DNA from: Erwinia piriflorinigrans CFBP 5888
Lineage (GTDB): Bacteria > Pseudomonadota > Gammaproteobacteria > Enterobacterales > Enterobacteriaceae
Direction: 5' to 3'
NCBI RefSeq assembly: GCF_001050515.1
Contig: NZ_CAHS01000014.1
Location: 124,001-188,000, forward strand
Length of the DNA: 64,000 nt
The notes below the pieces were generated by a model, which was given only the letters and a program-made list of their open reading frames with translations, ran no database searches and was not told where the DNA came from. A program made the position numbers and the translations under genes. Of this stretch, positions 1 to 2,528 are shown one piece after another (position 1 is the first letter of the stretch; every line of letters begins with the position of its first letter).

Positions 1-612
1 AAAACCCATTACCAGACCGAACGCGATCGCTATCCACCAGCAAAAGAGAGCAAAACGCGGGCGACGCGGATAGAACAAAAAAAACAGCGCCATGGCGCTA
101 AAGCCGCTGGAAGCGTGCCCGCCCGGGAAGCAATGCCCCGGCCCGCTCTGAGCAGGGACATGGCCGAACAGCGGATAAGAGACGGCTTGGCCGCCAAATT
201 GTACCAGGTCCCACGGACAGGAGTGCGCGCTGCTGGCCTTCAATATGCCGACTACCAGCGGGCCGGTCCCCATCATCAGGGCTACCAGTACCCACCGAGG
301 CTGGCGGCGCAGCAGACCGGCCAGCAGCAGCAGGACGCCGCCGCCAATCAGCACTTCTTTTAGCAGCCGGTGATTAATCACATCCAGCCAGCGGTTATCC
401 TTCCACGGAAACTGATGGATGACCGGATCGAACCACAGTCTGGTCAGCGCCATATCCCAACTCTCGTCCCGCGACAGCCAGATAAAAAACAGGGCGGTAA
501 GTACCAGTAACACGAACTGTTTAAGATAAAAGCGTGCGGGCAGTGGGTAAAGAGGATCGCGCTGAATGTCACGGGCCGTTTGGCTTCTGTTTAGAATGGC
601 TAATGGTTTCAT
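1..612 (-). CDS. PAP2-family membrane phosphatase (3' end outside window)
   Basis: The frame opens with ATG at 610-612 (MKPLAILNRSQTARD...) and stays open to base 1, giving 204 codons without a stop, so the C-terminus lies outside the window. It has an N-terminal hydrophobic helix, a second at about residues 85-100, then a third. The phosphatase signature follows: a Lys-containing segment (KASSAHSCPWDL), then GHCFPGGHASSGF with the PAP2 GGHAS core. The family dephosphorylates lipid pyrophosphates or phosphates such as undecaprenyl-PP or lipid A at the membrane. It resembles neither E. coli YbjG nor LpxT in sequence, so I assign no symbol and the substrate is unknown. A PmrA/BasR-type box lies 49 bp upstream, which points to envelope remodelling. 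The family call is firm; the function is inferred. Confidence 0.8.
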   Translation of the reverse strand, partial: MKPLAILNRSQTARDIQRDPLYPLPARFYLKQFVLLVLTALFFIWLSRDESWDMALTRLWFDPVIHQFPWKDNRWLDVINHRLLKEVLIGGGVLLLLAGLLRRQPRWVLVALMMGTGPLVVGILKASSAHSCPWDLVQFGGQAVSYPLFGHVPAQSGPGHCFPGGHASSGFSAMALFFLFYPRRPRFALFCWWIAIAFGLVMGF

Positions 613-660
613 GTCGTTTTCGACTGGCTGATAAACATCATGCTATTCTGCCGGGTGGCG

Positions 661-677
661 ATTAAGGAAACATTAAG
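661..677 (-). promoter_or_regulatory. Probable PmrA (BasR) box upstream of the PAP2 phosphatase
   Basis: On the minus strand the sequence is CTTAATGTTTCCTTAAT: two identical CTTAAT hexamers with a 5-bp spacer. This is the known PmrA/BasR direct-repeat architecture. It lies 49 bp before the start codon at 612, and a poor -10 (TAGCAT) sits 15 bp downstream of the box. The motif match is seen directly; regulation is inferred. Confidence 0.6.
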
Positions 678-719: not shown

Positions 720-786
720 AAAAAAACCCGTTAATCAGTCGATTAACGGGCTCCTCAATGCGGGAATTTCAAAGAAAAGCAGTGGC
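720..786 (-). ncRNA. rybB: RybB small RNA
   Basis: On the minus strand, from 786 downward, the sequence begins GCCACTGCTTTTCTTTGA. I recognise this as the conserved 5' seed of RybB, the Hfq-dependent sRNA that represses outer-membrane protein mRNAs in the sigma-E response. The middle has diverged. The 3' end is a perfect 10-bp stem, CCCGTTAATC/GATTAACGGG with loop GACT (727-750), followed by seven Us, so it carries its own terminator and Hfq tail. The predicted length is about 67 nt, shorter than the roughly 80 nt of E. coli RybB. It sits just downstream of ybjL on the same strand, as in E. coli. A sigma-E-like promoter lies exactly upstream. Confidence 0.88.
727..750 (-). terminator. Intrinsic terminator of rybB (and possibly ybjL read-through)
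   Basis: A perfect inverted repeat with 10-bp arms and a 4-nt loop is followed on the minus strand by a T run (720-726). It forms the 3' end of RybB and could also stop transcripts arriving from ybjL. Confidence 0.85.
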
Positions 787-839: not shown

Positions 840-2528
840 TCATCCGCCGAGGATTGGCCAGATTATGACGATCAGCGTCCCTGCCAGGGTGAGTAATACG
901 TTAGCAATCGCGTAGGTTCCCGCATAACCGAGTGCCGGGATGTTACTGCGTGCCGTATCGCTGATAATCTCCATCGCCGGAGCACAGGTACGTGCACCCA
1001 TGATTGCGCCAAAGAGCAGAGCGCGGTTCATTTTTAGCACCCAGGCACCAAACAGGAAACAGATAACCACCGGGACCAAGCTGACCACTAACCCCGCCCC
1101 CAGCATGAGCAGCCCGGTTTCGCCCAGCCCCTGGGTTATCCCGCTACCGGCGCTTAAACCGACACCCGCCATAAACACCATCAGTCCGAACTCTTTCACC
1201 ATTGTCAGAGCGCCCTGTGGAATATAACCAAAGGTGGGATGGTTAGCACGCAGGAAGCCCAGCATAATCCCTGCGAAGAGCAGTCCGGCCGCATTGCCGA
1301 TACCAAAGTTGAAGTTGCTGAACTGGAAAGTGATCATGCCGATCATCAGGCCGACAATAAAGAAGGCGCAGAATGCCAGCAGGTCGGTGACCTGGCTGTT
1401 TATGGAGATAAAGCCGATACGGTCGGCGACGGATTTGACGCGTCTTGCTTCTCCGCTGATATGCAGCACATCGCCTTTATTGAGAATGATGCTTTCATCA
1501 ATGGGCATTTCAATCTGACTACGGATCACTCGATTAAGAAAGCAGCCGTGATCGGTCAGCTTCAGCTGGCTCAGCCGTCTGTTGACCGCGTTGTTATTCT
1601 TTACCACGATCTCTTCGTTAACAATGCGCATATCCAGCAGGTCACGGTCGAACACCTCTTTACCATTGCGGAAGCTGGGATCTAGGCGGGCATGGGCATC
1701 CGGGTAGCCAACCAACGATATTTCGTCGCCCGGCTGTAACACGGCGTCGCCATCCGGACTGGCCAGAATGCCGTTACGGCGAATACGTTCAATGTAACAA
1801 CCGGTCTGGCGATAGATGCCCAGCTCGCGCAGGTTTTTCCCATCGCTCCAGGCCACCAACTCCGGGCCTACGCGATATGCGCGGATCACCGGCAGATAGA
1901 CCTTACGTTTACTGTCTGGGTCCAGCCCACGTTCGCGTGCAATCTGCTGTGCGCTGGTAGGCAGATCCTGATGCTGTAATTTTGGCAGGTAGCGCGCGCC
2001 GAAAATTAAACTGACCAGGCCAATCAGGTAAGTCAGTGCGTATCCCAGACTAAGATGGTCCTGAGCAATACTCAGGCTTTTACCGTCCGGCAGCGTCTGG
2101 CGCAGGGTATCGCCAGCGCCAACCAGTACCGGAGTCGAAGTCATCGATCCGGCCAGCATCCCGGCAGTCAGGCCAATATCCCAGCCGAACAGTTTACCCA
2201 GCCCGAGAGCCAGCACCATCGCGCTACTGACCATCACTATCGCCAGCATCAAATAGTTTTTGCCATCGCGGAAGAAAATAGAAAAGAAGTTGGGGCCGGC
2301 TTCAACGCCTACACAGAAGATAAATAACATAAAGCCCAGATTAAGGGCGTCAGTGTTAATAGAGAAGTGCTGCTGACCGAGTAATAAAGAAACGACTAAA
2401 ACGCCAATAGAATTACCGAGTTGAACAGAGCCTAACCGGAGTTTGCCTAAACACAACCCTAATGCCAGTACGACGAATAATAACAGAATGTAATTTCCAC
2501 TTAACAAATCTGCAACGTTTATATTCAC
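840..2528 (-). CDS. ybjL: Putative transporter YbjL (AspT/YidE family)
   Basis: 562 residues, the usual length for YbjL. The layout is the aspartate:alanine antiporter-like fold: an N-terminal block of five or six hydrophobic helices (about residues 10-180), two soluble RCK_C/TrkA-C domains in the middle (about 205-285 and 295-375, e.g. [17 protein letters not shown] and [13 protein letters not shown]), and a second membrane block repeating the first (about 385-560). It sits in the inner membrane. The transported substrate is not established for YbjL itself. The gene stands alone; rybB follows it on the same strand. Confidence 0.93.

Follow-up and report, generated by a model that had tools for sequence, protein, structure and literature searches.

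The window analyzed here, a 64,000-nucleotide stretch of the Erwinia piriflorinigrans CFBP 5888 genome, begins within a gene for a PAP2 phosphatase that is preceded by a direct repeat of PmrA type. The locus raises the question of whether this repeat serves as a PmrA site and which process the phosphatase behind it supports. On the evidence presented below, we consider it probable that PmrA acts through this box on a ybjG operon making two lipid phosphatases and that PAP2 serves phosphoethanolamine transfer together with one clade of EptA.

The direct repeat and its genomic background

A perfect CTTAAT-N5-CTTAAT upstream of the PAP2 gene had been reported in the initial annotation and was confirmed (Table 1); its end lies 48 nt from the PAP2 ATG (position 612). 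The repeat, CTTAATgtttcCTTAAT at 661-677, is the sole exact CTTAATN5CTTAAT in the 3.93-Mb genome. The exact pattern read backwards, as a control, has 0 copies in the genome, and by arithmetic about 0.5 exact copies would be expected by chance in 3.9 Mb over both strands. With up to two mismatches allowed, the window holds 3 matches compared with 3.36 expected. The relaxed consensus YTTAAKN5YTTAAK occurs 3 times in the genome and 10 times when read backwards, i.e., without genome-wide enrichment. By motif alone, the box is not beyond chance; the weight of the evidence rests on its place and its conservation.

The other two exact matches to the relaxed consensus lie near a pagP-like gene (C13:282970-282986) and just before an mscL-like gene (C22:9036-9052); both are possibly chance occurrences. 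The names pagP, mscL, dacB, greA, mdfA, and deoR are used here and below for genes that we take to be such by eye. In the same genome, CTTAATTTTGCCCTAAG (11/12) stands 198 nt before arnB (L157) and ATTAAGGTTTCCCTAAG (10/12) stands 43 nt before eptA (L159); neither of these sites is the exact consensus.

Table 1. Features at the PAP2 end of the window (positions are those of the window)
Feature	Position	Strand	Description
PmrA box, direct repeat CTTAAT-gtttc-CTTAAT	661..677	minus	CTTAATGTTTCCTTAAT; 0 mismatches to CTTAAT-N5-CTTAAT; located at the predicted promoter's -35 region
Predicted -10 element CAGAAT	645..650	minus	Aligned columns xAnnnT with invariant A and T; 10 nt after the box
PAP2 gene, 5' 204 codons	1..612	minus	259 aa in all; stop at C14:123833, outside the window; Pfam PAP2
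ybjL	840..2528	minus	NF003440, 1136 bits (cutoff, 645); upstream neighbor, outside the likely operon
Inverted repeat CCCGTTAATC-N4-GATTAACGGG, then T7	720..750	minus	Read directly from the sequence

Locus organization

The 3' end of PAP2 and its neighbors lie outside the window and were recovered from the genome sequence. The 3' end is overlapped by 41 nt by the reading frame of ybjG (NF008813, 314.4 bits; cutoff, 229), which is followed by a serine/threonine-type transporter gene. PAP2 is likely the first gene of an operon with ybjG. The hairpin at 720-750 is likely the intrinsic terminator of ybjL and would part that gene from the PAP2-ybjG promoter. In addition to PAP2 and YbjG, the genome encodes LpxT. 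The nearest named relatives of the locus are from Erwinia, with E. persicina at 77% identity for PAP2 and 96% for YbjL.

Conservation of the box and gene order

We searched 198 genomes of the same family for PAP2 and found it in 31, intact in 28 and degraded in 3 (G016, G162, and G071). Across the 28 intact loci, which were scored without a shuffled control, the box matched at 12/12 positions in 14, 11/12 in 5, and 10/12 in 9. In a second set of 80 named loci, the best 80 of 464 relatives, we scored the best-matching site in the 150 nt that precede PAP2. The two sets share loci; G176 and L104, for instance, denote one position on one contig. Among the best 80 of 464, the site scored 12/12 at 43 loci, 11/12 at 24, and 10/12 at 13; a shifted site was scored for six Serratia loci. 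Dinucleotide-shuffled regions reached at least 12 in 0.08% of cases, at least 11 in 1.5%, and at least 10 in 12.9%, and the reversed-sequence control for the same 80 loci gave a score of 11 at 1/80 and of 10 at 12/80. The initial annotation had named a lack of box conservation in related genomes as one result that would refute its reading; the box proved to be conserved, scoring at least 11/12 in 67/80 and at least 10/12 in 80/80 of these best-matching named loci.

In an alignment of 26 loci hand-picked across genera from the 80, the half-sites carry 1.67 bits per column, compared with 0.19 upstream and 0.29 downstream. Columns +28 (A) and +32 (T), counted from the start of the box, are invariant in this alignment at 2.0 bits each and fit a predicted -10 element located 10 nt downstream of the repeat. 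The box and the -10 footprint are thus conserved across genera. One table of box-to-start gaps is partly circular, since the start codon chosen there was the one whose distance from the box came closest to 48 nt; the gaps of the 28 loci are free of that choice.

Gene order is likewise conserved, with ybjG directly downstream of PAP2 in 27/28 intact loci and in 79/80 of the named loci (the best 80 of 464 relatives), sets that overlap. In Buttiauxella warmboldiae (L144:1534-2232), PAP2 and the box are kept and ybjG is missing; PAP2 sits there between mdfA-like and deoR-like frames, which is the place of ybjG in Escherichia coli.

Family assignment of the PAP2 protein

The protein contains a PAP2 domain (Pfam PF01569, 52.3 bits; cutoff, 27.2). 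Its active site reads KX6CP-PGGH-QX5HX3H and does not match the canonical motif KX6RP-PSGH-SRX5HX3D reported for PAP2 enzymes (PMC6581854). Compared with the same motif in LpxE, the lipid A 1-phosphatase, R is replaced by C, S by G, R by Q, and D by H; both catalytic histidines are kept. Residues K125, C132, P133, G164, G165, H166, Q206, R209, H212, and H216 are invariant in the 28 proteins and in 62 orthologues.

The protein had been described as a membrane PAP2 distinct by sequence from both YbjG and LpxT, and this was borne out. It has the PAP2 superfamily and the inner membrane in common with E. coli YbjG and LpxT, but its motifs differ, sequence similarity is little, and the YbjG model NF008813 (cutoff, 229) gave no hit at an E value of ≤0.001. 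Two further models were hit below their cutoffs, namely, NF028538 (PAP2 family lipid A phosphatase; 63.6 bits, cutoff 275) and NF028536 (PAP2_near_MCR1; E value, 5.6e-13; 49 bits, cutoff 475). Replacement of LpxT by PAP2 was rejected, as LpxT is present in 116/198 genomes and in 28/28 of those with PAP2.

A sequence search of the PDB with PAP2 retrieved no chain at an E value of ≤0.1. For structural comparison, a model of the E. persicina orthologue was used (mean pLDDT, 85). Foldseek found no match to this model at an E value of ≤0.001, the best being 5jki at 0.007. VIA-align ranked PAP2 proteins first, led by 5jki (Bacillus subtilis PGP phosphatase; Z score, 13.8; rmsd, 4.6; 187 residues). 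Aquifex LpxE, with which the fold is shared (6ebu; PMC6581854), came next at a Z score of 10.8; for helical proteins, the tool's note treats Z scores below about 13 as weak. By its domain and predicted fold, the protein is a member of the PAP2 superfamily.

Co-occurrence with one EptA clade

In a tree of 60 EptA sequences, all EptA proteins from PAP2-containing genomes fall into one clade of 36 rows (SH-aLRT, 99). This clade also holds EptA from the PAP2-less genomes G119, G143, and G165 and from G016 and G162, in which PAP2 is decayed. The 91 genomes with an EptA hit at an E value of ≤1e-100 were typed by the tree (55), by a bit score of at least 751 (35), or, for G014, by a partial 57% hit beside BasR. 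On this typing, the clade is present in 28/28 genomes with PAP2 and in 5/170 others (Fisher's exact test, 2.7e-29, with kinship ignored). Kinship was considered in an independent-pairs test on an LpxT tree, a single-gene proxy covering 80/198 genomes (the 28 with PAP2 and 52 chosen others). PAP2 without the EptA clade occurs in 0/80 genomes of this tree, and the best tree implies 18 changes in both traits. Among supported independent pairs, 4.8 agreed and 0.0 disagreed (median P = 0.0625, short of 0.05). The link between PAP2 and the EptA clade is therefore strong by count and, with kinship allowed for, only suggestive.

The association with a phosphoethanolamine transferase that marks EptA/mcr-associated PAP2 proteins thus takes the form of co-occurrence (28/28). 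The two genes are not adjacent in the window genome, where PAP2 is on contig C14 and EptA on C15. Since five genomes (G016, G162, G119, G143, and G165) have the EptA clade without an intact PAP2, this EptA does not need PAP2. Box-like sites scoring 9 to 12 of 12, mostly 40 to 62 nt upstream, precede the EptA genes of the clade; these were scored without a shuffled control. The initial annotation had also raised a role in cationic peptide tolerance, for which co-occurrence with one EptA clade offers an indirect link.

LpxT makes lipid A 1-diphosphate, EptA accepts the 1-phosphate, and in E. coli the peptide PmrR inhibits LpxT. PmrR was detected at an E value of ≤1e-5 in 10/198 genomes and in 0/28 of those with PAP2, all 28 of which have LpxT. 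PAP2 standing in for PmrR is consistent with this distribution, but the argument is weak because most other genomes also lack a detectable PmrR. We regard it as distinctly unlikely that PAP2, as a PmrA-controlled chromosomal equivalent of mcr-linked pap2 across Enterobacterales, would trim LpxT-made lipid A 1-diphosphate to 1-phosphate for EptA and so be the enzymatic equivalent of PmrR.

An alternative is that PAP2 is a second undecaprenyl-pyrophosphate (C55-PP) phosphatase that adds to the dose of YbjG and that the EptA link reflects lineage history. The operon partner is indeed YbjG, the tree-aware EptA test gave a P value of 0.06, and the fold matches include LpxE, whose reported substrates are lipid A, C55-PP, and PGP (PMC6581854). 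However, the active site combines KX6CP with QX5HX3H, as opposed to the RX5HX3D of YbjG, and an mcr-linked hPAP2 with a triad mismatch is reported to have conferred no bacitracin resistance (PMC7559476). Moreover, PAP2 occurs without the EptA clade in 0/28 genomes, though ybjG is present in 123/198. Taken together, these points make a plain C55-PP phosphatase unlikely, and we favor a PAP2 that works with EptA.

The ybjG promoter with and without PAP2

In Salmonella, ybjG (mig-13) is reported as a member of the PmrAB regulon (PMC1525208; PMC7559476). The present locus has the same type of PmrA box in front and ybjG behind it (PMC1525208), with the difference that an extra PAP2 gene stands between them. 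According to PMC1525208, neither the E. coli nor the Yersinia pestis orthologue has conserved the Salmonella ybjG motif; we found an 11/12 site upstream of E. coli ybjG. The literature covered, from which subscription journals are mostly missing, describes no PAP2 gene ahead of ybjG, a negative that does not prove absence.

Loci with ybjG and no intact PAP2 were sampled as 17 among the 30 ybjG loci listed. A site of at least 11/12 lies within 400 nt upstream of ybjG in 10/17, including G071, where a PAP2 remnant lies between; of the loci without any trace of PAP2, 9/16 keep such a site. In these nine, the distance from the box to the start of ybjG is 74 to 188 nt, compared with 48 nt to PAP2 here. 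Because ybjG follows PAP2 and sites are kept before PAP2-less ybjG genes, the promoter is best read as the ybjG promoter, with PAP2 as an extra first gene. The rule is not simple, however: no site of at least 11/12 precedes ybjG in G020, G146, G171, and G186, four ybjG-only genomes whose PmrA is of the E. coli type. The phosphatase had been proposed as an additional PmrA-controlled one. PmrA control is very probable; what did not hold is the picture of an isolated target, as PAP2 is the first gene of a likely ybjG operon.

PAP2 is decayed in place between box and ybjG in G016 (L032), G162 (L031), and G071 (L045), which indicates that it was lost in place there. G071 has no EptA at an E value of ≤1e-100; its genus mate G192 has both genes. 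These decayed copies, beside which ybjG stays, and the 9/16 trace-free loci that keep their sites would suit a box that serves ybjG alone, with PAP2 a passenger that has no function in the PmrA response. We consider this very improbable, because the active-site residues are invariant in the 28 proteins and the 62 orthologues, B. warmboldiae keeps PAP2 and the box although ybjG is missing, and G046 has PAP2 with no ybjG at an E value of ≤1e-20.

PmrA versus QseB as the regulator

The window genome has both a site of the YTTAAK-N5-YTTAAK type upstream of the PAP2 start and PmrA/PmrB, as in members of the PmrA regulon. Its PmrA gene (C5:78822-79481; 57% identity to E. coli BasR) lies apart from eptA, is followed by a frame that by eye we take to be its kinase, and adjoins dacB-like and greA-like frames; the dacB adjacency was seen in the window genome and in G086. 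PmrA of this type, at 72% identity or higher, is held by 23/28 genomes with PAP2. The remaining five (G003, G046, G060, G155, and G180) gave no such PmrA and only hits below 50%.

In the four of these genomes whose loci were examined (G003, G046, G060, and G180), two QseBC pairs lie beside EptA. The second, QseBC-like pair (L341 in G003, L342 in G060, L344 in G180, and L349 in G046) is 56 to 62% identical to E. coli QseB. In the same four genomes, the second half-site instead reads A[CT]TAA[GT], both before PAP2 and before one EptA copy. From these sequences, this looks like a regulator swap within the clade, with the sites following.

These four genomes, in which PmrA was not found, and the 45 to 50% identity of QseB-type regulators to PmrA might suggest that the repeat serves the paralogous QseB, or another OmpR-family regulator, instead of PmrA. 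Against this reading, PmrA is the sole such regulator at an E value of ≤1e-50 in the window genome and in G040, G086, G108, G176, and G196, and yet the 12/12 box is kept. In G119, from the same genus, no regulator exceeds 49% identity to the window PmrA, and QseB alone is present (72% identical to its E. coli counterpart); this genome has no site of at least 11/12 before ybjG, no site of at least 10/12 before EptA, and no PAP2. Similarly, G087 has QseB (70 to 72% to E. coli QseB) and lacks any hit of PmrA grade, any site of at least 11/12 before ybjG, and PAP2. G031, with no regulator hit at an E value of ≤1e-50, also has no site of at least 11/12 before ybjG. Since G119 and G087 lack a site of at least 11/12 before ybjG and the six genomes with PmrA alone at that threshold keep a 12/12 box, QseB is disfavored as a highly doubtful candidate and PmrA is favored as the regulator.

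Relatives outside the family and mcr-linked pap2

Relatives of PAP2 occur in 39/369 genomes of the class, the window genome counted. Among 29 loci from other families, EptA lies within 1.5 kb in 5, DgkA in 2, and a BasR-like regulator in 3. KX6CP with HX3H was found at 14 of these loci, canonical KX6RP with HX3D at 2, and neither by pattern at 13. In one genome from another family of the class (L323; G421), a PAP2 of this subfamily is directly followed by a YbjG-like PAP2 (33% identity), with a BasR-like regulator upstream; judged by sequence, this is a PAP2-YbjG pairing outside the family.

A plasmid search retrieved 27 records matching PAP2. All were at 32 to 44% identity, and recent plasmid cargo was rejected as the source of PAP2 on this basis. 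In the four of 27 records whose context was examined, the signature KX6CP / P[GA]GH / [QR]X5HX3H recurs with small changes (4/4). The relative on an Acinetobacter baumannii plasmid lies beside pmrB and a response regulator gene. In A. radioresistens, it lies beside dgkA; kinase and response regulator genes follow, as does one for a lipid A phosphoethanolamine transferase. The Klebsiella variicola relative is also beside dgkA, and that of Pseudomonas veronii is beside a sulfatase-family gene.

Genes named hpap2 or pap2 are reported to be linked to mcr-1, mcr-2, and mcr-7 (PMC7559476 and PMC10285318), with pap2 beside mcr-1 and mcr-2 (PMC10285318); the term ybjG is absent from the main text of the latter source. 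The present PAP2 has in common with mcr-linked pap2 the broad family (NF028536), a tie to a phosphoethanolamine transferase, and a changed catalytic triad. In contrast to mcr-linked pap2, it is chromosomal, stands behind a PmrA box, is paired with ybjG, and is not linked to eptA; against the model for mcr-1 pap2, it reaches 49 bits, below the cutoff of 475.

Proposed role of PAP2

The computations establish the site, the gene order, the conservation of both, the active-site signature, and the co-occurrence with the EptA clade. In the mechanism that we propose on top of these, phosphorylated PmrA, bound to the repeat at the -35 region, would activate the promoter. One transcript would then give two inner-membrane, probably periplasm-facing lipid phosphatases, first PAP2 and then YbjG, so that PmrA would induce both together during envelope remodeling. 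YbjG, established in E. coli as dephosphorylating undecaprenyl pyrophosphate (PMC2229476), would secure undecaprenyl phosphate. PAP2 would have as its substrate a phosphorylated lipid important to EptA, which it would meet in the periplasmic leaflet. Candidate substrates, in order, are LpxT-made lipid A 1-diphosphate, undecaprenyl pyrophosphate, and phosphatidic acid or PGP. PAP2 would belong to a subfamily with an altered active site that serves phosphoethanolamine transfer to lipid A, and it would work with one EptA clade, most of whose genes lie behind box-like sites, in the way that pap2 goes with mcr-1. We infer that PAP2 is a periplasmic lipid phosphatase, induced by PmrA and supporting this EptA, and is a chromosomal counterpart of mcr-linked pap2. 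Both ybjG as a PmrA target and transferase-linked PAP2 proteins are already known; the locus is a well-supported PmrA-type operon that varies these themes and is no new kind of system.

If this proposal is correct, the unexplained pap2 next to mcr-1 would gain a counterpart on the chromosome for which a regulator is likely and an operon partner is known, and whose substrate deletion can reveal because the bacteria that carry it are culturable. The signature KX6CP/PGGH/QX5HX3H would be a marker for PAP2 proteins that may serve phosphoethanolamine transferases. Undecaprenyl-phosphate recycling by YbjG and phosphoethanolamine addition to lipid A by EptA would be joined in one PmrA-induced response.
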